From: Acidithiobacillus caldus ATCC 51756
Lineage (GTDB): Bacteria > Pseudomonadota > Gammaproteobacteria > Acidithiobacillales > Acidithiobacillaceae
Length of the DNA: 64,000 bases
Assembly: GCF_000175575.2 (NCBI RefSeq)
Contig: NZ_CP005987.1
Span: 1-64,000 of the forward strand
Direction: 5' to 3'
The notes under the pieces are model-generated. The model did no database searches and was not told where the DNA came from. It worked only from the letters and a program-made list of their open reading frames with translations. Shown piece after piece: positions 20,748-35,340 of this stretch (positions are counted from its first letter, which is position 1; every line of letters begins with the position of its first letter). A program made the translations under genes and the position numbers.

Positions 20748-21779
20748 TTAAAAGGCCGCATGCTGTTGGAACTGCGTTGTTGCCAGAGGGCCAGGGCTTT
20801 CGTCGGCAAGCCCTCTGGCTACCGCGTCTTCTGTCGAGCCGTCCCTATGCAGAGGATCAAAATACTGCCTATGGATCACGCGATGAATGGAACCGAGATC
20901 TTGTTGTAGGTGATCCAGATATTCGTGAAGTACGGCAGAATTTAGGTCCGCAAGATCCAATTGGTCCAGCCGCTTACGCCCCCGGCGCAATGCTCCCTGG
21001 GCGGCCGAGTTGGCGGGCAGAGTGGCCAGAGCGACTTCCATTTCCCCGAGGCAGTGGTAGACCGTCCGCGGGAATTTGCGATCTCGGATGAGAAACTCGA
21101 CCACTTCGTTGCCACGCACCTCGACGGACACGTGGCGCCGATACATCTCAAAGGCGCTCATGGCGCGTAAAACCCCGATCCAGAGGCTTTCGCTGAGGGT
21201 TGCTTGTAACTTATCCCTTTGGGGAAGAATAACCGCTGTCGTGACGTCCACAATGCGCGTGGTCATGTCGGCGCGCTCCATGTTCCTTCCAAGTTTGACG
21301 AACTGATAGGCGGCATCTTGGCTCATGGTTCCAACCAGGAGGCCCACGAGGGCATGACGCCTGGCAATTACCTCACTCAAAAACGCGTACCGATCGTGTC
21401 GGTTGCCGATCGAGGCACTGGCATAATCGCGGACGAAAAGAAAAAGGGAGTTGAGGCGCTCCCAAAACTCGGAGGGAAGGATTTCCCGAAATGTCCGACT
21501 ATTCTCTCGAGCCTGGTGAATACAGGAAACAATAGCGCTAGGGTTACGTTCATCCGCGATCAAGAACCCCATGATCCGTTGCTCGTCGAGGTTTCCGTAG
21601 CGCGTTTCGTAGAGTTCGGCGATACCGGCAATCCGAAGCAGTATATCCCAACCAAACTCGGCTTTTGGGGGCAGATCGAGCAGCAGCAAAGTAGTCGCAT
21701 TGATCAGACGCGCCATATCCTCACTCCGCTCCAGATATCGGGCCATCCAATATAAATGCTCGGCTATGCGGGAAAGCAT
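20748..21779 (-). CDS. alpha-E domain protein (DUF403)
   Basis: 343 residues from the ATG at 21779 (MLSRIAEHLYWMARYLERSED, a hallmark opening of the alpha-E family). All-helical, with conserved Arg/Glu-rich helices. Its start overlaps the end of the ATP-grasp gene by 16 bp, so translation is coupled. Alpha-E proteins almost always accompany the permuted ATP-grasp and a transglutaminase in predicted peptide-synthesis or modification operons. Last gene of the Anbu locus. Confidence 0.92.
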   Translation of the reverse strand: MLSRIAEHLYWMARYLERSEDMARLINATTLLLLDLPPKAEFGWDILLRIAGIAELYETRYGNLDEQRIMGFLIADERNPSAIVSCIHQARENSRTFREILPSEFWERLNSLFLFVRDYASASIGNRHDRYAFLSEVIARRHALVGLLVGTMSQDAAYQFVKLGRNMERADMTTRIVDVTTAVILPQRDKLQATLSESLWIGVLRAMSAFEMYRRHVSVEVRGNEVVEFLIRDRKFPRTVYHCLGEMEVALATLPANSAAQGALRRGRKRLDQLDLADLNSAVLHEYLDHLQQDLGSIHRVIHRQYFDPLHRDGSTEDAVARGLADESPGPLATTQFQQHAAF

Positions 21780-23230
21780 GGTAGGTCTCCGAGGTCCACT
21801 ATCCACGTATCTTTGGAACCACCGCCTTGGGAACTGTTGACTATAAGCGATCCCGATTGCATTGCTACCCGGGTGAGCCCGCCTGTAGTAACGTATAGTT
21901 CGTCCGCCTGCAGAATGAAAGGACGCAAATCGATATGTCGAGGCTCTAGTCTATCGCCCACCAAGGTTGGTGCGGTGGAGAGCGCGAGAGTGGGCTGGGC
22001 TATGTAATTGCGCGGATCCTCCTGGATACGTTGTGCAAAGCGATGCCGCTCCTCGGGCGTGGCTCGAGGGCCGATGAGCATGCCGTAGCCACCCGACTCG
22101 TTAGTGGGTTTTATCACCAGTTCGTCGAGGTGCTCCAGCACGTACGCACGATCCTCCTCGCGCATGCACAGGTAGGTGGGTACATTGGGCAGGATGGGCT
22201 CCTCGTTGAGATAGTACCGAATCATGTCGGGAACGAAGGCATACACGACCTTATCGTCTGCCACACCCGCGCCGGGTGCGTTGGCGATGGCAACGGTGCC
22301 TTTTATCCAGGCGCGCATGAGTCCGCGCACGCCGAGCACCGAATCGGAGCGGAAAACCTCCGGATCCAGATAGTCGTCGTCAATCCGGCGGTATATGACG
22401 TCCACACGTTGCGGGCCGCTGACGGTCTTGAGGTAAACGATATCGTCCCGACCTACAAAGAGATCCGTCCCTTCGACCAAGAACGCGCCCATCTGTTGGG
22501 CAAGGTAGCTGTGCTCAAAATAGGCCGAATTGTAAATTCCCGGTGTGAGAACGACGATAATGGGACGGGATCGAGCGCGAGGCGAGATCGCAGCCAAGGT
22601 GTCGTAGAGGCGGCTGGTATAGTCATCGATCGGCAGGGGCTTGCATATCTGGAAAAGTTCGGGAAACAGCCGCTTCATGATTTGGCGGTTTTCGAGCATG
22701 TACGAGACACCGGAAGGTACCCGGAGGTTATCCTCCAAGACATAGATGGTCCCGTCGCTATCGCGTACGAGATCACTTCCGCAGATGTGCGCCCATACAC
22801 CCAGGGGCGGGTGAACGCCGCGACAGATAGCACGAAAATTGCGGGAGCTTTTCAGAACGGCTCGGGGGAAGACACCGTCGTTGACGATAGACTGCGCGTT
22901 ATATAGGTCGTCAATGAAGCAATTCAATGCCCGCACCCGCTGTTTGAGACCGGCCTCAATACGTTGCCACTCATTGTACGCCAGCATTCGTGGAACGACA
23001 TCGAAGGGCCAGGCCCGATCGATGTTGCCGGCTTCCGTATAGACGGTGAAGGTGATGCCCATGGCGAGAATGGCTGCTTCCGCGGCCTGGCGTCTTGCCT
23101 TGATCGTGTCGATGCCCAAATGCGCGAGGTGAGAGATCAAAGTTTGGGCCACAGGCCGTGTCTGCCGCTCTGTGTTGATGAGTTCGTCATAGGCCGTTTG
23201 ATGGCTGTAGTACTCTGAGAGCAGATCCAT
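21764..23230 (-). CDS. circularly permuted ATP-grasp protein (DUF404/DUF407)
   Basis: 488 residues, ATG with a GAGGAAAG site. Motifs of the permuted ATP-grasp family: VLEDNLRVPSGVSYMLENR, DVIYRRIDDDYLDP, KPTNESGGYGM and QPTLALST. Such enzymes are predicted to ligate an amino acid or amine to a peptide using ATP; substrate unknown. Sits between transglutaminase-DUF2126 and alpha-E genes in the canonical order. Confidence 0.93.
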   Translation of the reverse strand: MDLLSEYYSHQTAYDELINTERQTRPVAQTLISHLAHLGIDTIKARRQAAEAAILAMGITFTVYTEAGNIDRAWPFDVVPRMLAYNEWQRIEAGLKQRVRALNCFIDDLYNAQSIVNDGVFPRAVLKSSRNFRAICRGVHPPLGVWAHICGSDLVRDSDGTIYVLEDNLRVPSGVSYMLENRQIMKRLFPELFQICKPLPIDDYTSRLYDTLAAISPRARSRPIIVVLTPGIYNSAYFEHSYLAQQMGAFLVEGTDLFVGRDDIVYLKTVSGPQRVDVIYRRIDDDYLDPEVFRSDSVLGVRGLMRAWIKGTVAIANAPGAGVADDKVVYAFVPDMIRYYLNEEPILPNVPTYLCMREEDRAYVLEHLDELVIKPTNESGGYGMLIGPRATPEERHRFAQRIQEDPRNYIAQPTLALSTAPTLVGDRLEPRHIDLRPFILQADELYVTTGGLTRVAMQSGSLIVNSSQGGGSKDTWIVDLGDLPCFPA

Positions 23231-25943
23231 ACCTTTCCTCTATGGAGCTCACGGTGTGGGCTCTAGTCCTGTTGTCCAATGACGCAATAGGCGTGCCATA
23301 CCACGGGGACGAATCGGATCTGTGAATAGAACGCTTCTGGAGAAACGATTCTGGGTGTTTTCCCTATATAGGTGCATAGGTGCGCTACCCTAGTGCTTCG
23401 CGCCATTTGGTGGTGCTGGTCGGCGCAGATCCAAAACCGTGGGGTAATCGGGATTGCCTTCTTCGGGAGGCGTGTCTCCCAGGGACCATCGAGGATCGTC
23501 GGTAAGCGGTGCGTCTCCTGAGCTGCGCTTGGTTCCGAGGGTAACGTCGGGATTCATGCCCGATACATGTCCAGTGGAGGTAAAACGGCTGTGGCGACGT
23601 GCTTCGGCTTCCCAGGCGTTGATGGGCGGGTGTTCGTAGTGATGCCCGCCGGGATGAACGACGTGATAGGTACATCCACCGATGGACAGGCCATTCCAGG
23701 AATCCACAAGATCGAACACCAAAGGAGAGTGGACGGGAATCGTTGGATGCAGCGCAGACGGGGGCTTCCACGCGCGATACCGCACCGCTCCCACATAGTC
23801 GCCGGTGCGTGCGGTGGGGCGCAGAGGAACGCGTCGTCCATTGCACGTGAGCGCGTAACGCGCGGGATTCAGTCCAACCACGCGCACCTGGAGACGTTCC
23901 ACCGAAGAATCGACGTAGCGAGCGGTACCCCCTGCGGTGACCTCTTCTCCGAGAACATGCCACGGTTCGAGGGCCGCCCGGAGCTCTATGCGGCTATCCC
24001 CGATTTGGACCTCGCCGTATCGCGGAAAACGAAACTCCAGGAAGGGCGCAAACCATTCGCTCTCGAACGAGAGGTCGTGCGCGCAGAGATCGGCCACAAT
24101 CTCGTTCAGGTCCTCCCAAAGGTAATGCGGCAGCATGAAGCGATCGTGTAGCTCCGTACCCCAGCGGATGAGCCGATGCCGGTATGGGGCCTCCCAAAAA
24201 CGCAAGATCAAGGCCCGCACCAGGAGTTGCTGGACGATATGCAACCGCGCATGGGGAGGCATTTCAAAAGCGCGCAGCTCGACCAAACCTTGCCGCCCGG
24301 CCGGGCCGTCGGGGGAATACAATTTATCGATACAGATCTCTGCACGGTGCGTATTGCCACTGACGTCTACAAGCAGATTCCGAAACAGTCGGTCCACAAG
24401 CCACGGCTGGGGAATTTCGCCGACCGGGGTTTGCGCAAACGCGATCTCCAGCTCATATAGGGCCTCGTGTCTAGCCTCGTCGATGCGGGGGGCCTGACTC
24501 GTTGGACCGACAAAAAGACCGCTAAAAAAATAGGAGAGGGCGGGATGGTGTTGCCAAGAGGTAATGAGGCTTTGCAGGAGATCTGGGCGTCGAAGGAAGG
24601 GGCTGTCGAGCGGTGTTATCCCCCCAAGGGTGATGTGGTTACCGCCACCCGTACCGGTATGGCGTCCATCGATCTGAAATTTCTCTGCGACCAGGTGCGA
24701 TTGCCGTGCTGCGGCGAAAACCCCCTCCGATAGGGAGACGATTTCCGACCAGGACCGCGCCGGATGCACATTGACTTCGATTACCCCAGGATCGGGGGTG
24801 ACCAGCAATTTTTCCACGCGCCGATCTTTTGGCAGAGGATAGCCCTCCACCACAATGGGCATTTGCAGTTCCGACGCGGTGGCCTCAACGGCTGCCAACA
24901 AGGCAATCGCCGGTTCGAGCGTTTCAGTCGGCGGCAAGAAAATATAGAGACCACCCGTGCGAACCTCCGTGGTCAGAGCGGTACGTGGAACCGGTAGAGG
25001 AGAGCTATTCGGGTCCCGATCTTGAACTAGAGATACGTCTGTGTGCGCACTGCCCGAGTCATGGAGATCGCTGAGGGGGGCAATCGGCGCGAATGGGTCG
25101 TTTTCGACTACGATATCGCGTTTCTGCGGATCGACCCAGGGGAGGCTGTCCAGGGGCAAGCGTAAGCCGAGCGGTGAGTTGCCGGGGAGCAGGATGAGGC
25201 GGCTTCGCCGAAAGGTCCAGGCCCCCGAATACCAGCTGGACCGACGGATATCCCAAGCGATGGGCAGGACAAAGCCTACCGGGAAACGCAGATCCTTGGA
25301 GAGCTTCTCCGCCAGAGCGCGGCGCTCGTCGCTATCGGCGAGGTCGTGTGTGTCCAGATCGAGGTTGGCCGGTAGCGTGGACTCCCGATACAGATAGTAC
25401 AGGGTGTCCTCATAGGCAGGCTGAATGAACGGTTCCGGAATACCTAAACGTCGCGCTAGTGCAGAGAGAAAGCGTTCGGCGTCTGCCCGAGTTCGGCCGT
25501 AGTCGGTACCCGCCACGGCGAGAAGGGAGGGGTCTTGCCACAGGGGTACGCCATCCTTGCGCCAGTACAATCCCAATGCCCAGCGCGGAAGTGCTTCGCC
25601 GGGGTACCATTTACCCTGCGCAGAATGCAGCAGGGCTCCGGAGGTGAAGCGATCTTGCAATGCGCGAATAAGGGTTTCGCCCTTCTGGCGCTTTTCGGCA
25701 CCCAAAGCCTCGAGATTCCACTCGGGTGCCTCTGGGTTGTCCAGAGACACAAAGGTTGGCTCGCCTCCCATGGTCAGTCGTACATCCCCAGCAGCGAGCC
25801 GCGTATCGATGCGTTCCCCGAGTTCCACGATATGGGACCATTGGCGGTCCGTGTACGGCTTGCTGACTCGGGGGGATTCCCGAATGCGCGCTACGGTATT
25901 GTGAAAAGAAAAATCCACCGTACACGGTTCCGTAGAACCGACA

Positions 25944-27361
25944 GAGCTATGGTCAAGATTGGTGTATGAGCATTTGCTAACACGATTCAGGCGGCGTCCT
26001 GTTGAGGATCCAGCCGGGTTTCGTTGGCAGGCATCCCATCGACAAATGTCACCCCGGCAAAGAGCTCGCGCAGTCTTTCCGGATGCTGAATCCCGCGCCA
26101 GTGTCTCTCTGCCTGCTGGATGAGCTTGTAGCTCAGGCCAAGGAAAGTGGCTCGAGAGACACAGTTTTTAGTGCGGCTGCTGCGTTGCCGTACGGTGGCG
26201 AAGGTCGATTCGATGGCGTTGCTGCTGCGGATATGCCGCCAGTGCTCTGCCGGGAAGTCGAAGAAGGTCAGCAGCACGTCCCGGTCCTTCTCGAGCTTTG
26301 CGACCGCTCTGGGATATTTGGCCTGGTAGTCCCGCACGAAGGCTTGCCAGGCTTTCTCCGCAGCTTCACGGGTGTCGGCCATCCAGATCGCCTGCAGGGC
26401 GGCCTTGGCTTTCCCCTGAAGGCGCTTCGGTAGCTCGTTGAGGATGTGGCCGTCTTGTGCACCCAACAGCGCTGATGACGGGTTTGTGGGTAAATCTCGT
26501 CCAGGGCGGCCCAGAAACCCATCGCCCCATCTCCTATGGCCAGTAGTGGCGCCTCCTGCAGCCCGCGGTCGCGCAAGTCCCGCAGGATCTCTAGCCAGGA
26601 GGCTTTGGACTCCCGTAAACCGTCGGTGACCGCCACGACCTCCTTCTTGCCCTCGGCCGTCACGCCAATAATGACCAAGAGACACATCCGGGGATCGTCC
26701 TCCGCCCGCAGCTGGGTATAGACCCCGTCGGCCCACCAATAGGCGTAGCGTTTTCCCTGTAGAGACCGGCGCTGCCATTGGGCATGCTCTTGCGCCCATT
26801 CGACTTTCAAGCGTCCCAGCACGGCCGGAGAAAGCCCCTTGGCCTCCTCGCCCAGGAGAACAGACAGCGCCTCGTGCATCCGTCCCGACGATACCCCGTG
26901 CAGGTACAACCAGGGGAGCGCTGCGGCCACGGTCCGCGACTTGCGCACGTAGGGCGGTACCAGGGAAGAACGGAAGACCACGCCCGAACCGGAGCGGTCT
27001 CGCACCTTGGGGACCTGTACAGGCACGGGGCCGACCGCTGTCAGGATCTCCCGCTCCGGCAGATATCCATTCCGCACGACGGCCCGGCGACCATCGACCA
27101 TGCGTACCGCGGCATACTCCTCCAGCAGCACCTGCACCTCGCCCTCGATGGCCTGTTGGATCAGCTGGCGCGCGGACCGCCGCAATAAGCCCTCGATGTT
27201 CAGGCCCAACTCTCCCATTCCTCCGTCGAAACCAGTACTCTCTTGCATGGCGCACTCCTCATTCGTTGCGAATCGGATCCAGAAACCCTTTTCTAGCAAC
27301 AGTGCGCCACCCTCCTCAAGCTAGTTGTAGACCTCCCGTACACCAGATTCGAGCATAGCTC
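25944..27361 (-). mobile_element. IS256-family element copy 1
   Basis: 1418 bp, inverted ends starting GAGCTATGGTCAAG and GAGCTATGCTCGAA, with 9-bp direct repeats GAACCGACA at 25935-25943 and 27362-27370. One base shorter than copy 2 at 30139. Inserted between the transglutaminase and DUF2126 parts of one gene. Confidence 0.95.
25987..27248 (-). pseudogene. IS256 transposase, 1-bp frameshift
   Basis: Same protein as at 30182 except for one missing T near 26448 (GATGTGGCC against GATGTTGGCC), which breaks the frame after CWVHKTA, between the second Asp and the catalytic Glu. The N-terminal piece would lack the Glu of the DDE triad, so this copy is inactive unless complemented by copy 2. Confidence 0.9.
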
Positions 27362-28213
27362 GAACCGACAATGGGTGCAGCGGCACGGGGTTGCGGGGTG
27401 CAAGCCAGAGGAATATGCCCCTCTCCAGCGAAAAGGCCAGAGGTGGGATCCAGACCCACCCATCCCGCGCCCGGAAGGTACACCTCCGCCCACGCGTGCA
27501 GATCCGTAAAATCTTTGGAGGGTCCTGCCGGGCCGTGCAAGGGGATCTCATCTGCCGCAAGCTGAACGAGGTATCCAGAGACAAAGCGACTTGCAAAGCC
27601 CAGGTGACGGAGCAGTTCCACCAGCAACCAAGCGGTGTCGCGGCAAGATCCCATACGGCGCTCCAGCGTCTCTTCGCAGGTCTGAACGCCCGGTTCCAGA
27701 CGGACGCCGTAATCGATAGCCTTTTGAAGATTCTGGTTTAGCGCCACCAGAAATTCTACCGTGTTTTGCGTATCTTTGGGGACTCTCTGCAGATAAGCGG
27801 AGAAAAGCGGACCAGCGTTGGCACACTCTCGATAGGGCCAGAGCTCTTTAGCAATCGCGTGGGGATACGTGAATGGCCAGGTCTCAGCAAAGTCCTCCAC
27901 GAAAAAGTCAAACGGATCCAGCACAGTCAGGTCCGCAACGACTTCGACCTCCACCGATAGCGCGCGAGCGGGTTTCGGGAAAACGAGGCGTCCTTGATAA
28001 TTCGCAAATGGATCCTGGTACCAATGTAAGAAGTGTTCGGCCGGTTCGACGGTCAGTTTATAGGCGAGAATTGGCGTGCGACAGTGTGGTGCTGGGCGCA
28101 GGCGAAGGAGGTGCGGATGAATAACCACCGAGCGATTGAATCGGTACTCGGTGTGATGACGAATGGCGACGTGCGTGCCCATGGATACCCCTCTTGGCCC
28201 CGATGGGGCATGA

Positions 28214-28984
28214 CTAGAAATGGGGTGCCGAGTCCTGCGACACCGTATTGTCCGTGTTTTTTTCCCAAAAGAATCGAGGCAAATTGTCCAGGGCTTGCAA
28301 AAGTCCGTTGGACCAGCACTCGGTTACGGAACGGAAGAACTGGTTATCCTCATCAAATATCAAGATCCGACCCTCCTGCAGCGAACCCGCGCTGTACAGT
28401 GCCAGTTCTATCGGCGGACCCACCGTGACGTTACTGCGCATGGTGGAACTCATGGAGACCAAGGCGCAGCGTCCCGCCGCTTCCAGGGACAGGTCTGGTC
28501 GAATAACCCGATCCAGTATGGGCTTGCCGTATTTGATCTCACCGATTTGCAAGAAGGGGTGCTCTGGAGATTCGTGAATGAAATTTCCTTGCGGATAAAT
28601 GAGAAATATGGCTGGCGCTTCGGTGTCAATTTGTCCGCCAAGGATGAACGTCGCTTCAAAGTTGACGTTGTTGATCTCCCGCTCCATCTGATTGCGCTGG
28701 ACATCGGCACTGATCATGCCCACGTACTGGGCCACGTCGGTCATGGTGGGAAGATTGAGGAGATTGATGTGCGCGTTGCGCTCCAGATCTTTGTTGAGAC
28801 GGCCAATAACTCCCTGGGTTGTGGCCAGGTTCCCTGCCGATAAGAGGAAAAGCACCCGGTTCCCCGGCCAGACGAAACGGTGCATCTTGGAATAGGTGTT
28901 GACCTGGTCCGTTCCGGCATTCGTGCGGGAGTCGGTACACAGCACCAACCCTGCATCCAGACGTATGGCACAACAGTAAGTCAT
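28214..28984 (-). CDS. Anbu, proteasome-like peptidase homologue (copy 1)
   Basis: 256 residues from the ATG at 28984. After Met removal the N-terminus is Thr1-Tyr-Cys, with Asp17 (CTDSRTNAG) and Lys32 (YSKMHRF), the Ntn-hydrolase residues expected for a proteasome beta-type fold. Other landmarks are LLSAGNLATTQ and GGQI. Anbu is the bacterial ancestral beta-subunit-like protein; its substrate is unknown. It lies 31 bp before the transglutaminase-DUF2126 gene and after the PDC-sensor gene. A 29-codon upstream extension is open but lacks Anbu similarity. Confidence 0.93.
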   Translation of the reverse strand: MTYCCAIRLDAGLVLCTDSRTNAGTDQVNTYSKMHRFVWPGNRVLFLLSAGNLATTQGVIGRLNKDLERNAHINLLNLPTMTDVAQYVGMISADVQRNQMEREINNVNFEATFILGGQIDTEAPAIFLIYPQGNFIHESPEHPFLQIGEIKYGKPILDRVIRPDLSLEAAGRCALVSMSSTMRSNVTVGPPIELALYSAGSLQEGRILIFDEDNQFFRSVTECWSNGLLQALDNLPRFFWEKNTDNTVSQDSAPHF

Positions 28985-29095: not shown

Positions 29096-30037
29096 TCACG
29101 ACCGTTGTGTCCGTGCCCGCTGTGCAAGCAACAGAGTCTCTGCGCGAGCACCGAGATAGACGTAGCCACCGAGCGATAGCAGGAGCAGGGCGGCCGCCGC
29201 GAGCAAGGCTACCGCGAGCCACAGATCGGGGGGATCGTCCAGGGCAAATTTGAACACCAGCATGAGCCCTTCGATGGAGACGGCAATCAGTATGGCAGCG
29301 ATGAAGCGTGTCAAGGTGCGGCGGGTGCTGCTGTGGCGGCGAATATCTTTTCGCAGCAGTACCTCCTCTTCGAAGATCGTTTTGGCCAGATCGAAAACGG
29401 CGAGGGCCAGGGTAAACAGGATCGTGGCCTGAAACGGCGCACTGAAATGTGGTAGTTGCGCGTGCAGTGACCAAATGCGCTCGAGGGAAAGACCGGCATG
29501 CAGGCCCAGTGAGAGGCTCACGATCAGCAATCCGAGGGAAAAGATGGCATAAACCATCTTGAAGTAGGGTTCGGCGAGGCGTCGGGTATCGTCCTCCTCC
29601 AACAGTGCCAGGGCACGATCCAGTTCGCTGTCGGCAACGACAATCCCCAACACGGCTCCTTGGGCGTCCCGCACCGCGATGGCAACGGTAACGCATATCC
29701 GGTTGTTGGCCGAGGAGAGGTACGGATCGGTGAGCACGGCGTCATCGGCTGCCATGGCGAGACGATAATAGGGTCGATGGCTGCGATCGGCACCGGCTCC
29801 ACCTTGGGTCCCTCGACGCCGATAACTGGCAAGGTTATCGCCAATCTGCCTACCCTCAGGATCGAGCAAATACACGAGCTCGATAAATGGATGCCGATCG
29901 AGGAGCGGGCGGAGGATACTACGCTGGGTTTCTGCATCGCAGGAAAACAGTGTGGGTTGGGCGATGGATTCCAGTGGGCCCGCGATCAATCGCAGTATAT
30001 CGCTGCGCAGCTCCCGGAAGTGCTCGAAACGGTTCAT
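29096..30037 (-). CDS. PDC-sensor (Cache-like) membrane protein
   Basis: 313 residues. Residues 1-160 resemble a PDC/Cache sensor (RPLLDRHPFIELVYLLDPEGRQIG, RPYYRLAMA, DPYLSSANNRICVTVA), followed by several transmembrane helices (about 175-195, 215-235, 255-275, 285-305). There is no kinase, GGDEF or methyl-accepting output domain, so signal output is unclear. No N-terminal anchor helix precedes the sensor, which is odd for a periplasmic PDC. First gene downstream of the sigma-54 site at 30079, leading into Anbu copy 1. Confidence 0.75.
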   Translation of the reverse strand: MNRFEHFRELRSDILRLIAGPLESIAQPTLFSCDAETQRSILRPLLDRHPFIELVYLLDPEGRQIGDNLASYRRRGTQGGAGADRSHRPYYRLAMAADDAVLTDPYLSSANNRICVTVAIAVRDAQGAVLGIVVADSELDRALALLEEDDTRRLAEPYFKMVYAIFSLGLLIVSLSLGLHAGLSLERIWSLHAQLPHFSAPFQATILFTLALAVFDLAKTIFEEEVLLRKDIRRHSSTRRTLTRFIAAILIAVSIEGLMLVFKFALDDPPDLWLAVALLAAAALLLLSLGGYVYLGARAETLLLAQRARTQRS

Positions 30038-30078
30038 CTGGCGTGCCTCTCGGGGGAAGGTCGTGCAGCATGGAAGGA

Positions 30079-30094
30079 AGCAAGACCTATGCCG
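30079..30094 (-). promoter_or_regulatory. candidate sigma-54 promoter of PDC-Anbu operon
   Basis: CGGCATAGGTCTTGCT on the minus strand, GG-N10-GC, with a perfect TTGCT -12 box. Expected transcription start about 30068, 31 bp before the PDC ATG. IS256 copy 2 begins only about 45 bp upstream. Confidence 0.6.
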
Positions 30095-30138
30095 TATTTT
30101 TCAAACAGAAGCGGTAACGGGTGGCACGACGATTGCGT

Positions 30139-31557
30139 GAGCTATGGTCAAGATTGGTGTATGAGCATTTGCTAACACGATTCAGGCGGCGTCCTGTTGA
30201 GGATCCAGCCGGGTTTCGTTGGCAGGCATCCCATCGACAAATGTCACCCCGGCAAAGAGCTCGCGCAGTCTTTCCGGATGCTGAATCCCGCGCCAGTGTC
30301 TCTCTGCCTGCTGGATGAGCTTGTAGCTCAGGCCAAGGAAAGTGGCTCGAGAGACACAGTTTTTAGTGCGGCTGCTGCGTTGCCGTACGGTGGCGAAGGT
30401 CGATTCGATGGCGTTGCTGCTGCGGATATGCCGCCAGTGCTCTGCCGGGAAGTCGAAGAAGGTCAGCAGCACGTCCCGGTCCTTCTCGAGCTTTGCGACC
30501 GCTCTGGGATATTTGGCCTGGTAGTCCCGCACGAAGGCTTGCCAGGCTTTCTCCGCAGCTTCACGGGTGTCGGCCATCCAGATCGCCTGCAGGGCGGCCT
30601 TGGCTTTCCCCTGAAGGCGCTTCGGTAGCTCGTTGAGGATGTTGGCCGTCTTGTGCACCCAACAGCGCTGATGACGGGTTTGTGGGTAAATCTCGTCCAG
30701 GGCGGCCCAGAAACCCATCGCCCCATCTCCTATGGCCAGTAGTGGCGCCTCCTGCAGCCCGCGGTCGCGCAAGTCCCGCAGGATCTCTAGCCAGGAGGCT
30801 TTGGACTCCCGTAAACCGTCGGTGACCGCCACGACCTCCTTCTTGCCCTCGGCCGTCACGCCAATAATGACCAAGAGACACATCCGGGGATCGTCCTCCG
30901 CCCGCAGCTGGGTATAGACCCCGTCGGCCCACCAATAGGCGTAGCGTTTTCCCTGTAGAGACCGGCGCTGCCATTGGGCATGCTCTTGCGCCCATTCGAC
31001 TTTCAAGCGTCCCAGCACGGCCGGAGAAAGCCCCTTGGCCTCCTCGCCCAGGAGAACAGACAGCGCCTCGTGCATCCGTCCCGACGATACCCCGTGCAGG
31101 TACAACCAGGGGAGCGCTGCGGCCACGGTCCGCGACTTGCGCACGTAGGGCGGTACCAGGGAAGAACGGAAGACCACGCCCGAACCGGAGCGGTCTCGCA
31201 CCTTGGGGACCTGTACAGGCACGGGGCCGACCGCTGTCAGGATCTCCCGCTCCGGCAGATATCCATTCCGCACGACGGCCCGGCGACCATCGACCATGCG
31301 TACCGCGGCATACTCCTCCAGCAGCACCTGCACCTCGCCCTCGATGGCCTGTTGGATCAGCTGGCGCGCGGACCGCCGCAATAAGCCCTCGATGTTCAGG
31401 CCCAACTCTCCCATTCCTCCGTCGAAACCAGTACTCTCTTGCATGGCGCACTCCTCATTCGTTGCGAATCGGATCCAGAAACCCTTTTCTAGCAACAGTG
31501 CGCCACCCTCCTCAAGCTAGTTGTAGACCTCCCGTACACCAGATTCGAGCATAGCTC
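30139..31557 (-). mobile_element. IS256-family element copy 2
   Basis: 1419 bp, same ends as copy 1, with 9-bp direct repeats CGATTGCGT at 30130-30138 and 31558-31566. Inserted between the Anbu operon promoter and its upstream region, through a 24-codon frame with a good ribosome site. Confidence 0.95.
30182..31444 (-). CDS. IS256-family (mutator-type) transposase
   Basis: 420 residues from the ATG at 31444 (MQESTGFDGG, GAGGAG site). DDE residues lie in WADGVYTQLR, AIGDGAMGF and NAIESTFATVR. Apparently intact, so it could also move copy 1. Confidence 0.95.
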   Translation of the reverse strand: MQESTGFDGGMGELGLNIEGLLRRSARQLIQQAIEGEVQVLLEEYAAVRMVDGRRAVVRNGYLPEREILTAVGPVPVQVPKVRDRSGSGVVFRSSLVPPYVRKSRTVAAALPWLYLHGVSSGRMHEALSVLLGEEAKGLSPAVLGRLKVEWAQEHAQWQRRSLQGKRYAYWWADGVYTQLRAEDDPRMCLLVIIGVTAEGKKEVVAVTDGLRESKASWLEILRDLRDRGLQEAPLLAIGDGAMGFWAALDEIYPQTRHQRCWVHKTANILNELPKRLQGKAKAALQAIWMADTREAAEKAWQAFVRDYQAKYPRAVAKLEKDRDVLLTFFDFPAEHWRHIRSSNAIESTFATVRQRSSRTKNCVSRATFLGLSYKLIQQAERHWRGIQHPERLRELFAGVTFVDGMPANETRLDPQQDAA

Positions 31558-31566
31558 CGATTGCGT

Positions 31567-31852
31567 AGTCTACCGTGACTACGGGTCATGGTGGTCACTC
31601 CTCCTCAGGTAGTTTTGGGCGGGTATCCCGCCCATTTTCTTTTGCAGATCCCCGTGCAGGGTTTCCCAAAGGTGCAGGGGCCGGACGAGACCTCTGGGGC
31701 GCACCCAATCGGCTATGCGCGGTTCGCTGGTGGCCAGGAAGCCGCCGAGCTTGGGATATAGCTCGATCGATCATGCATCAAACTCGTGCAGAAATCCTCA
31801 TAACCGTGCGCGATGCACCTTGCTGGAGAGGGCGATCCCCGGGGAAAAACGG
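31567..31852 (-). promoter_or_regulatory. upstream region with hairpin and NtrC-like site
   Basis: No convincing full gene. On the minus strand it holds the 5' part of a 24-codon frame (MTRSHGRLRNR..., AGGAGGAG site) cut by IS256 copy 2. A hairpin GGGCGGG/CCCGCCC at 31617-31633 is followed on the plus strand by an AT-rich run. TGCATCAAACTCGTGCA at 31774-31790 is one base from GCAC-N7-GTGC and may be the NtrC enhancer of the PDC-Anbu operon. Confidence 0.4.
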
Positions 31853-32617
31853 CTAGCGAGCGTTTTTATAGGTTTTCTCGCGGTTCAGGGAGGATTCTTC
31901 CCAAGGAAACGGCGGTAATCTGCCGATGGCTGCGGCCAACCCCTGGTGCCACTGGCTGCGCAGTTCGCGCAAGAAAAGGTGCTCGCTTCCCCAGCGCAGA
32001 TGCCGGCCCCCGTCGAGACGATCTCCTGTCAGGATGAGTAATTCCACGGGTGGTCCCACGGAGAGATTGCTCTGCAGCGTGGTGTCCATGGATACGAGCG
32101 CGCAGCGGGCTGCCGCCTCGAGGGACCATTGGCTTGTCACCATGTCGAGTAGGGGTTTGCCGTACTGAACCTCACCCATCTGCAGAAAGGGGTGTTCGGG
32201 CGATTCGTGAATGGCATTGCCTTGCGGGTAGATCAATCGCAGCCCCGGGGGCGCCGATCCGATTTGTCCGCCCAGAAGGAAGCTCGCTGTAAAATCCGTC
32301 GGTTCCGAGTGTCGGCGGGCATGCCTCTGCTGTACTTCAGCGCGGATACTGCCCACATAATCGGCGGCAAGATCCAGGCTGGGGACGGTGCGCAAAGAAA
32401 TCCTCTGGTCCCGTTGCATGTCCTGACGCAGGCGGTGGAGCACGCTTTGGGTGGTAGCGAGGTTCCCTGCGGACAAGAGGCAGAAATGGCGCTGATCCGA
32501 CCAACCAAATCGGTGCATTTTGGAGTAGGTGCCGACGTTGTCGATACCCCCATGCGTCCGGGAATCGGAGCAGAAGACGAGCCCAGTATCGACACGTATA
32601 GCCAGGCAATAGGTCAT
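31853..32617 (-). CDS. Anbu, proteasome-like peptidase homologue (copy 2)
   Basis: 254 residues from the ATG at 32617 (a GTG precedes it). Same Ntn-hydrolase layout as copy 1: Thr1-Tyr-Cys, Asp17 (CSDSRTHGG), Lys32 (YSKMHRF), then LLSAGNLATTQS and GGQIG. Clearly diverged from copy 1 over the last 60 residues, so an old duplication or separate acquisition. Genomes with Anbu normally have one copy. It reads toward the PDC-Anbu operon and may have shared its transcript before IS256 insertion (inference). Confidence 0.92.
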   Translation of the reverse strand: MTYCLAIRVDTGLVFCSDSRTHGGIDNVGTYSKMHRFGWSDQRHFCLLSAGNLATTQSVLHRLRQDMQRDQRISLRTVPSLDLAADYVGSIRAEVQQRHARRHSEPTDFTASFLLGGQIGSAPPGLRLIYPQGNAIHESPEHPFLQMGEVQYGKPLLDMVTSQWSLEAAARCALVSMDTTLQSNLSVGPPVELLILTGDRLDGGRHLRWGSEHLFLRELRSQWHQGLAAAIGRLPPFPWEESSLNREKTYKNAR

Positions 32618-32718: not shown

Positions 32719-32735
32719 TGCACCGTCATGGTGCG
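32719..32735. promoter_or_regulatory. NtrC-binding site
   Basis: TGCACCGTCATGGTGCG: TGCACC-N5-GGTGC, an excellent match to NtrC sites, 45 bp upstream of the ntrB -24 box and about 100 bp upstream of Anbu copy 2. It suggests autoregulation of ntrBC. Confidence 0.75.
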
Positions 32736-32763: not shown

Positions 32764-32779
32764 TGGCGCGTGAATTGCT
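32764..32779 (+). promoter_or_regulatory. sigma-54 promoter of ntrBC
   Basis: TGGCGCGTGAATTGCT: GG-N10-GC, -12 box TTGCT, one mismatch in the -24 box. Predicted start about 32790, 20 bp before the ntrB ATG, whose GGAG site lies in that leader. Confidence 0.65.
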
Positions 32780-32809: not shown

Positions 32810-33898
32810 ATGGACTACCGCGCCATCGTTACATCACCACGACTGGGCTCGACACTTACCGGAGCGGGCCTGATCGAAGCGCTGGATTCGGGGGTAGTAC
32901 ATCTGGACGAAGATCGACGGATTCTCTACCTCAATCCGGCCGCAGAGCATTTACTGAAGGTTAGTCTGTCGCAGGCGCGGGGGCGCGCCTATGCAGAGCT
33001 ATGCGTTCCAGAGGGACCGGAGGGCCTGGATACGATGCTCGATGCCGCGGTGGCGTCGGGTCGGATACAGTATCGGCGCGCCTTGCCCCTGCACCGGGTG
33101 GATGGGGATCTCGTAGTCCTGGACATGGTGATCAGCGCACTGGAGGGATCCGGCTGGTTGATCGAGCTGCGCTCGGTGGAGCTTTCCCTCCGGCAGACAG
33201 AAGAGGCTTTGCAGGAGCGTGTTTACCTGTCGGCCCAAGAGATGCTGCGGGGGCTCGCACACGAAATCAAGAACCCACTTGGCGGTCTGCGCGGAGCCGC
33301 GCAGCTTCTGGACGCCGAGTTACCGCGCGCGGACCTGCGCGAGTATACGCGCATTATTCTGCACGAAGTGGATCGCTTGCGTGGTCTGGTCGATCGGTTG
33401 CGCGGGCCGGCGGGTGCCCCGGTGCTGCAGTCGGTAAACATCCATGCCGTGTTGGAGCACTGTCGTCGCTTATTGCAGACCGATTTGCCGGAGGGGATGG
33501 TCTTGCGTTTCGATTACGATCCATCACTCCCGGAGATCCAGGCCGATCCGGGACAATTGGTGCAGGTATTTCTCAATCTCCTGCGCAACGCCGAGCAGGC
33601 CGTGCAGGGGCGTGGACAGGTGCTTTTGCGCACCCGAATCGAGCGCCAGGTCCCCTGGATGCAGCGCATCCATTCTCTGGCTGTGCGCGTCGATGTGGTG
33701 GACGACGGGCCCGGGATTCCCGCCGATTTCTTGCCGCGCATTTTTCTACCGCTGATCACGACTCGGCCCGAGGGTATGGGCATGGGTCTGGCCATCGTGC
33801 AGGGCATCGTTCGGGCGCACGGTGGCGCCGTGCACTGCCGATCTCGCCCGGGTGAGACGGTATTCTCGGTATGGTTTCCGCTGGAGCGCAGACCATGA
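32810..33898 (+). CDS. ntrB: nitrogen regulation sensor kinase NtrB
   Basis: 362 residues, ATG with an AGGAGAA site. N-terminal PAS domain (LIEALDSGVVHLDEDRRILYLN), DHp helix with phosphorylated His151 (GLAHEIKNPLGG), then an ATPase domain (N box NLLRNAEQA, DDGPGIP, GMGLAIV). No membrane helix, as expected for the cytosolic NtrB. It phosphorylates NtrC under nitrogen limitation, with PII as inhibitor. ATGA overlap with ntrC. Confidence 0.95.
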   Translation: MDYRAIVTSPRLGSTLTGAGLIEALDSGVVHLDEDRRILYLNPAAEHLLKVSLSQARGRAYAELCVPEGPEGLDTMLDAAVASGRIQYRRALPLHRVDGDLVVLDMVISALEGSGWLIELRSVELSLRQTEEALQERVYLSAQEMLRGLAHEIKNPLGGLRGAAQLLDAELPRADLREYTRIILHEVDRLRGLVDRLRGPAGAPVLQSVNIHAVLEHCRRLLQTDLPEGMVLRFDYDPSLPEIQADPGQLVQVFLNLLRNAEQAVQGRGQVLLRTRIERQVPWMQRIHSLAVRVDVVDDGPGIPADFLPRIFLPLITTRPEGMGMGLAIVQGIVRAHGGAVHCRSRPGETVFSVWFPLERRP

Positions 33899-35340
33899 AG
33901 GGATGCGTCTGGATCGTCGACGATGACCCCTCCATACGCTGGGTGCTGGAGAAGGCCCTGCAAAAGGCCGAGTTGCAGACGGTGAGCTTTGCCGACGCCG
34001 ACGCGGCGCTGCAACGGAATCGGACCGAATTGCCGGACGTCGTGCTGACGGATCTGCGCATGCCAGGGACCCAGGGATTTGCGTTCTTGGAGACGCTACA
34101 AAAGCGCCATCCCGAACTCCCGGTCATCGTCATGACCGCCCACTCGGATCTCGAGAATGCGGTCACGGCTTTTTCTGGAGGGGCCTTTGAGTATCTGGCG
34201 AAACCCTTTGACCTGGCCGACGCCGTGGAGTTGGTGCAGCGCGCATTGCGTCGACGACTGGGCAACATGGCGGAATCGAAGGAGGCCGATGACGCAGAAC
34301 CCGACGCCGAGATCATTGGTCAGGCCCCGGCCATGCAGGTTGTGTACCGAGCCATTGGCCGCCTGTCGCGTTCGGAAATTCCCGTTCTGATCTTGGGTGA
34401 GTCGGGTTCGGGCAAGGAGTTGATTGCGCGCGCACTGCATCGGCACAGCCCACGTTCCAGTGGGCCGTTCATTGCCATCAATACGGCGGCGATCCCCGCT
34501 GAATTGCTCGAGTCGGAGCTTTTCGGTCACGAGCGGGGTGCATTTACCGGCGCGGTACAAAGTCGTAAGGGCCGCTTCGAACAGGCCGCTGGTGGTACCT
34601 TGTTCCTCGATGAGATCGGCGATATGCCGGCAGCCCTGCAGACGCGCCTATTACGTGTCTTATCCGACGGCAGTTATTACCGAGTCGGTGGCCAACAGGT
34701 GCTGCAGGCTAACGTACGTCTGCTGGCGGCCACCCACCAGGATCTCGAAAGCAAGGTCAGGGACGGGAGTTTTCGGGAGGATCTGTACCATCGCCTCCAC
34801 GTGGTTCGCCTTCAGATCCCACCCTTGCGGGAGCGACGGGAGGATATTCCGCTGCTGGCTCGCTATTTTCTGCGACGCGCTGCGACCGAGCTGGGTACCG
34901 AAGCCAAGCGCCTCGCCCCAGAGGCCGAGGTCTGGATGGAGGCATGGCACTGGCCCGGGAACGTGCGGCAGCTGGAAAACGTCTGCCGCTGGCTCACGGT
35001 CATGGCGCCGGCACCGCAGGTGGAGGTGGCCGATCTGCCGCCAGAATTGCGGCATCGGCCGGGAGATTCTGTCCACGATACATCGGACGCCCCGATGGGT
35101 AGGATCGACGGGTGGCTGAAGGAATTGCGCGAGGAGCTCGAGCGCCGACTGCGTCGAGGCGACGACGAGATCCTCGACGAACTCGGCACGCAATTTGAGC
35201 GCTGTTGCCTGGAAACGGCGCTCCGCTTTACCCGCGGACACAAACAGCGCGCGGCCCAAAAATTGGGCTGGGGACGTAACACCATCACCCGCAAACTGCG
35301 GGAATTGGGGATCGACGTAGAGGCAGACGATACCCTATAG
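33895..35340 (+). CDS. ntrC: nitrogen response regulator NtrC (sigma-54 activator)
   Basis: 481 residues from the ATG overlapping the ntrB stop. Receiver with Asp53 (LTDLRMPG), AAA+ domain with Walker A GESGSGKE, the sigma-54 contact loop GAFTGA and Walker B FLDEIGD, and a Fis-type helix-turn-helix at the C-terminus ([20 protein letters not shown]). It binds GCAC-N7-GTGC enhancers and activates sigma-54 promoters such as those proposed here for ntrBC, glnA, glnK and the Anbu operon. Complete; an IS5-family element follows 49 bp downstream. Confidence 0.96.

Follow-up and report, generated by a model that had tools for sequence, protein, structure and literature searches.

Short intergenic RNAs that have a sigma-54 promoter and/or an NtrC site and are linked to nitrogen control are described in Pseudomonas (NrsZ, NfiS and NfiR; PMC6606865), and the rhizobial small RNAs (sRNAs) NfeR1 and alpha-r14 have an anti-Shine-Dalgarno (anti-SD) motif of the CCUCCUCCC type and a link to NtrBC (PMC10746234). 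The Anbu and transglutaminase (TGase) genes PP_2685-2688 of Pseudomonas putida are listed as being under NtrB/NtrC control and as induced in nitrogen limitation (PMC7801951, PMC5666114). Here we describe a locus of Acidithiobacillus caldus ATCC 51756, within a 64,000-nucleotide stretch (positions 1 to 64,000 of contig NZ_CP005987.1; hereafter the window), in which an IS256-family insertion sequence (IS) lies between the predicted sigma-54 promoter of a gene for a PDC/dCache sensor membrane protein and an NtrC-type palindrome. In our judgement the IS quite probably separates a regulatory hub, removing the promoter from the plasmid copy of a candidate sRNA and distancing the PDC enhancer, with the chromosomal hub left intact. 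The features concerned are as follows.

29096..30037, minus strand: PDC/dCache sensor membrane protein gene (313 aa)
30079..30094, minus strand: predicted sigma-54 promoter of the PDC-sensor gene, CGGCATAGGTCTTGCT (GG-N10-GC; conserved across the family)
30122..30137, plus strand: orphaned predicted sigma-54 promoter of the candidate sRNA, TGGCACGACGATTGCG (10/11), now pointing into the IS
30130..30138, no strand: left target-site duplication, CGATTGCGT
30139..31557, minus strand: IS256-family insertion sequence (1,419 bp, ends GAGCTATG...CATAGCTC)
30182..31495, minus strand: IS transposase (437 aa, Transposase_mut)
31558..31566, no strand: right target-site duplication, CGATTGCGT, repeating the sRNA promoter -12 without its -24
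31576..31643, plus strand: candidate sRNA body, comprising a 5' hairpin, the anti-SD segment CACUCCUCCUC and a terminator, separated from its promoter by the IS
31616..31634, plus strand: intrinsic terminator hairpin of the candidate sRNA, with TTTTCTTTT directly after
31774..31790, no strand: NtrC-type palindrome, TGCATCAAACTCGTGCA, with its centre at +206 relative to the predicted start of the sRNA
32810..35340, plus strand: ntrB (32810-33898) and ntrC (33871-35340), adjacent to the hub

The arrangement of promoter, IS and enhancer given in a preliminary description of this DNA is confirmed, with the IS at 30139-31557 between 30079-30094 and 31774-31790; its distances from enhancer to promoter, about 250 bp without the IS and 1.7 kb with it, were close to those we measured from the enhancer centre to the predicted PDC start (~286 and ~1,714 bp). 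That description overlooked a divergent candidate sRNA gene whose predicted promoter the IS disrupts outright. The target duplication spans the -12 element of the sRNA promoter: its left copy keeps -24 and -12 together and reads into the IS, and its right copy leaves only the -12 before the sRNA, the sigma-54 score falling from 10 to 6 of 11, so that the plasmid sRNA copy is without a recognisable sigma-54 promoter. The PDC promoter is intact to about -70 relative to the predicted start, with no other change. The element itself is typical of its family, with a Mutator-type transposase (Transposase_mut, PF00872, 222.5 bits, E-value 1e-65), terminal inverted repeats, 9-bp target duplications at most of its copies, and ~18 near-identical full-length copies across the genome; we saw nothing unusual in it relative to other IS256-family insertions, a family that the A. 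caldus type strain is reported to carry in abundance (PMC3826726).

The genome comprises four contigs totalling 2.99 Mb, the largest of 2,777,717 bp, and the window belongs to contig 2 (171,972 bp), which is probably the megaplasmid of the type strain. The A. caldus megaplasmid has been reported to carry glnA and amtB, and its nitrogen assimilation and regulation genes to have close chromosomal counterparts (PMC3826726). The chromosome (C1) holds a second glnA-ntrBC-anbu2-PDC segment, ~99% identical to the plasmid segment, in which the insertion site has no IS and CGATTGCGT is present as a single copy, so that the ancestral layout is directly visible; this allele supplies, within the same genome, the IS-free state that the preliminary description would have sought in other strains. 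In it TGGCACGACGATTGCG, which matches sigma-54 better than the PDC promoter does and lies on the opposite strand, is followed by a 10-nt gap and then by a ~66-nt segment whose end is formed by a strong hairpin and a T-tract, and the NtrC palindrome stands at -325 from the PDC ATG. The sRNA/PDC hub of this copy (L009 12841-16610, C1) is intact. Plasmid and chromosome are 100% identical across the 295-bp block of enhancer and sRNA and ~1% different in the neighbouring genes, with differences in the genes common to both replicons being mainly synonymous (pN/pS, the ratio of nonsynonymous to synonymous differences, 0.07-0.27). The two A. caldus plasmid records that we compared lack the PDC gene and have only IS copies in common with the query, so the comparison of alleles is that within this one genome.

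A layout of sigma-54 promoter and terminator upstream of the PDC gene was found in nearly all Acidithiobacillaceae, and the sRNA block persists next to prkA in species that have no PDC gene there (L075-L077). A joint pattern of a sigma-54 score of at least 10 and a terminator 50-115 nt downstream gave 13 matches in 386 kb, all of them to this hub, and 0 in shuffles; there were 0 matches in the window because the IS parts the promoter from the sRNA body. Of 29 family genomes, 25 have the candidate sRNA by a covariance model built from 14 sequences, with matches scoring at least 34 bits. As the terminator fell out of register between genera when the full sRNA alignment was first folded, we used a structure-guided alignment, in which 98% of pair cells were kept and four pairs were changed on both sides, a result reached in 0 of 500 shuffles, this alignment being fitted to the structure and so leaning toward the model. 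Between the 5' hairpin and the terminator the core has a nearly invariant CUCCUCCUC (anti-SD), which suggests that this segment pairs with Shine-Dalgarno sequences. With its own predicted promoter, conserved structure, intrinsic terminator and no conserved open reading frame (ORF), the candidate has the features of a trans-encoded sRNA. In three genera the NtrC palindrome lies at +197 to +206 relative to the sRNA start, in others 87-127 bp downstream of it, and the spacing also holds at loci without an adjacent PDC gene, which ties the position of the NtrC site to the sRNA.

Relative to NrsZ, NfiS and NfiR, the candidate differs in its prkA/PDC locus, its length of ~66 nt, its anti-SD segment and the position of its enhancer downstream of the gene. 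Relative to NfeR1 and alpha-r14, it has a sigma-54 promoter and one motif, and a pairing with ntrB was not consistently supported: in a duplex screen of local genes ntrB was the best target (p=0.04 before correction) and was not repeated in relatives, and the PDC gene was strong in three closely related species only. No Rfam family matched the sRNA at threshold; SorX (RF02784) gave a full-length covariance match of 25.8 bits, below the gathering score of 46.6, and by this score the sRNA is not a member of that family. A literature search, which was not exhaustive, gave no paper on Acidithiobacillus sRNAs.

Weaker matches to the covariance model at C1:2104497-2104694 (L095/L096) proved to be a different, tandem sRNA-like element of the UCCUCCUUUGGUGG type with a terminator and without a sigma-54 site. 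Many family genomes have similar pairs, and elements that may be related occur in other families of the class (L129-L141). In a locus from one such family (L130) a sigma-54-like TGGCACGGTCTCTGCA stands before a hairpin, CUCCUCC and a terminator, and this arrangement may be an analogue of the sRNA.

Motif counts in the window say little of the PDC-gene sites: sigma-54 matches of the PDC-site grade are common (18 seen, against 15.6 per shuffled window), and the NtrC site alone has p=0.06 within its own 600-bp upstream region. It is conservation in PDC orthologues that raises both sites above chance. In orthologous PDC genes from four genera the sigma-54 site, with its GG-N10-GC -24/-12 kept, lies 51-97 bp ahead of the ATG in most cases (per-locus p 0-0.045). 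Upstream of the majority of these genes there is an NtrC palindrome, a 17-bp TGCAC..GTGCA sequence at a conserved position to which NtrC is predicted to bind. The preliminary description had attributed the two signals to sigma-54 and NtrC, which the recurrence of the pair in PDC orthologues across Acidithiobacillaceae bears out. Elsewhere in the window, glnA has a promoter of the same type (CGGCAT-N5-TTGCT) with three NtrC-like sites, and upstream of ntrB a sigma-54 site stands at 32764 and an NtrC-like one at 32719; the genome carries rpoN and ntrBC.

Taken as a mechanism, the anbu2-PDC intergenic region would be one copy of a small hub for nitrogen control that is conserved across Acidithiobacillaceae. 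It would comprise the PDC sigma-54 promoter, a divergent sigma-54 promoter driving the ~66-nt candidate sRNA, and, ~200 bp past the start of the sRNA, a shared NtrC enhancer that could act on both promoters by looping. The IS would have inserted between the -12 of the sRNA promoter and the sRNA start, and with the PDC enhancer shifted from about -286 to about -1714, NtrC activation of the PDC and anbu1 genes would probably be weakened and not abolished, as NtrC acts over long distance (PMC7408454). As the chromosome retains its hub of sRNA and PDC intact, the insertion would have been tolerable. The main definite effect is that on the candidate sRNA; the effect on Anbu is probably partial and falls on an operon that was broken in any case. 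The reading is built on the anatomy of the locus, the IS-free allele and conservation, from which we infer transcription, NtrC binding and sRNA action.

Several observations weigh against it. NtrC may still activate across 1.7 kb; the A. caldus PDC promoter is of a weaker CGGCAT form; and, in contrast to most relatives, its NtrC site TGCATCAAACTCGTGCA agrees with the consensus at 10 of 12 positions and lacks a clear second site at a distance of 22 bp. In addition, the covariation is modest, with the plain alignment before structure-guided realignment being weak (1 pair), and target prediction for the sRNA gave nothing consistent.

The bearing of the insertion on the Anbu operon depends on the layout of the neighbouring genes, which is as follows.

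20748..23230, minus strand: Anbu operon genes CP-ATP-grasp (21764-23230) and Alpha-E (20748-21806)
23390..25918, minus strand: DUF2126 amidoligase part of the split gene
25944..27361, minus strand: second copy of the same IS (duplication GAACCGACA), splitting TGase-DUF2126; transposase frameshifted
27362..28182, minus strand: transglutaminase part of the TGase-DUF2126 gene, a single gene of 1,117-1,123 aa in relatives
28214..28984, minus strand: anbu1, Anbu/proteasome-type protease (256 aa)
31853..32617, minus strand: anbu2, diverged second Anbu (52% identical to anbu1)

These genes form an Anbu operon, with a proteasome-type Anbu gene accompanied by TGase, CP-ATP-grasp and Alpha-E genes. In relatives the operon is divergent from ntrB and convergent with the PDC gene; here anbu2 takes the ntrB-side position, and anbu1 and the remaining operon genes lie downstream of PDC in the same direction. 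The preliminary description's assignment of the sigma-54 promoter to the Anbu operon was right in that the promoter precedes PDC with anbu1 adjacent, and wrong in that it belongs to the PDC gene, which is convergent with the operon in relatives. Compared with PP_2685-2688, the A. caldus operon has PDC first, a split TGase-DUF2126 gene and the IS between enhancer and promoter. The operon is decaying in this genome: the second IS splits TGase-DUF2126 on the plasmid, and on the chromosome, where the same IS lies between PDC and anbu1, the operon is truncated within anbu1 after 45 codons and its other genes are absent. The transposase frame of the second IS copy is shifted by a 1-bp difference. 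The ntrB-side anbu2 is the more diverged paralogue and had no Pfam match at an E-value of 0.001.

Given this decay, a serious alternative, to which we assign somewhat less than an even chance, is that the insertion had no regulatory consequence, being one of several neutral IS insertions in a redundant, decaying Anbu copy across which NtrC still reaches the promoter. The presence of the same IS at three places in two operon alleles, the truncated chromosomal operon, the intact chromosomal hub and the tolerance of NtrC for long distance all agree with this; against it, the -24 element of the plasmid sRNA copy is physically lost, and the retained genes differ between the copies in a purifying manner. 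By itself the IS finding is modest, one of several insertions in a decaying, partly redundant operon copy.

We regard as doubtful the proposal of the preliminary description that the Anbu operon has been uncoupled from NtrC by the IS or has gained a new promoter from it. The enhancer is indeed shifted to 1.7 kb, PDC and anbu1 are codirectional with no other sigma-54 site scoring 9 or more before anbu1, and the P. putida Anbu operon is nitrogen-regulated (PMC5666114, PMC7801951). Uncoupling does not follow from the shift, since NtrC acts at more than 1 kb: according to a review, NtrC sites up to ~1 kb away or more act with no appreciable loss, and at 6 kb their activity is lower (PMC7408454). 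Also against the proposal, PDC is outside the Anbu operon in relatives and the second IS breaks the operon further downstream. As for a new promoter, a consensus scan found 0 sigma-70-like sites in 29950-31900, with none facing outward from the IS, and a TTGACC near the IS end, read from the sequence, has no -10-like partner at the right spacing.

It is very unlikely that the conserved block, instead of being an sRNA, leads into a small protein encoded on the PDC strand (GAGGAGG then ATG), for although the block reads on that strand as a Shine-Dalgarno sequence GAGGAGGAG with an ATG 8-11 nt later in most species, which counts against the sRNA, the ORF is anywhere from 7 to 87 codons long and its C-terminus is not conserved, the ATG is absent in one species, the sigma-54 site, start spacing and T-tract terminator are all kept and face the other way, and the block is kept beside prkA where PDC is not. 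The small ORF, not being conserved, was rejected.

Returning to the sRNA, we lean slightly toward the view that Acidithiobacillaceae have an undescribed NtrC/sigma-54-driven sRNA whose enhancer, ~200 bp downstream, serves up to three sigma-54 promoters (those of the sRNA, the PDC sensor and prkA), and whose exposed CUCCUCCUC would lower the translation of mRNAs with a GAGGAGG leader under nitrogen starvation. If so, this family-wide hub of up to three sigma-54 promoters with one enhancer would give Acidithiobacillaceae a nitrogen-starvation regulatory RNA, nitrogen limitation being relevant to bioleaching, and the replicon pair of A. caldus would offer a natural comparison of an intact and a promoter-less sRNA allele within one genome. 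The PrkA of a relative had no match in this genome in a search made without a positive control.

The region upstream of anbu in relatives (L010-L022) has a conserved NtrC palindrome at about -130 and no clear sigma-54 site facing anbu. In the same ntrB-anbu intergenic region we noted a conserved CTTCCCAAC..CAGCGAATAT block downstream of the NtrC palindrome.
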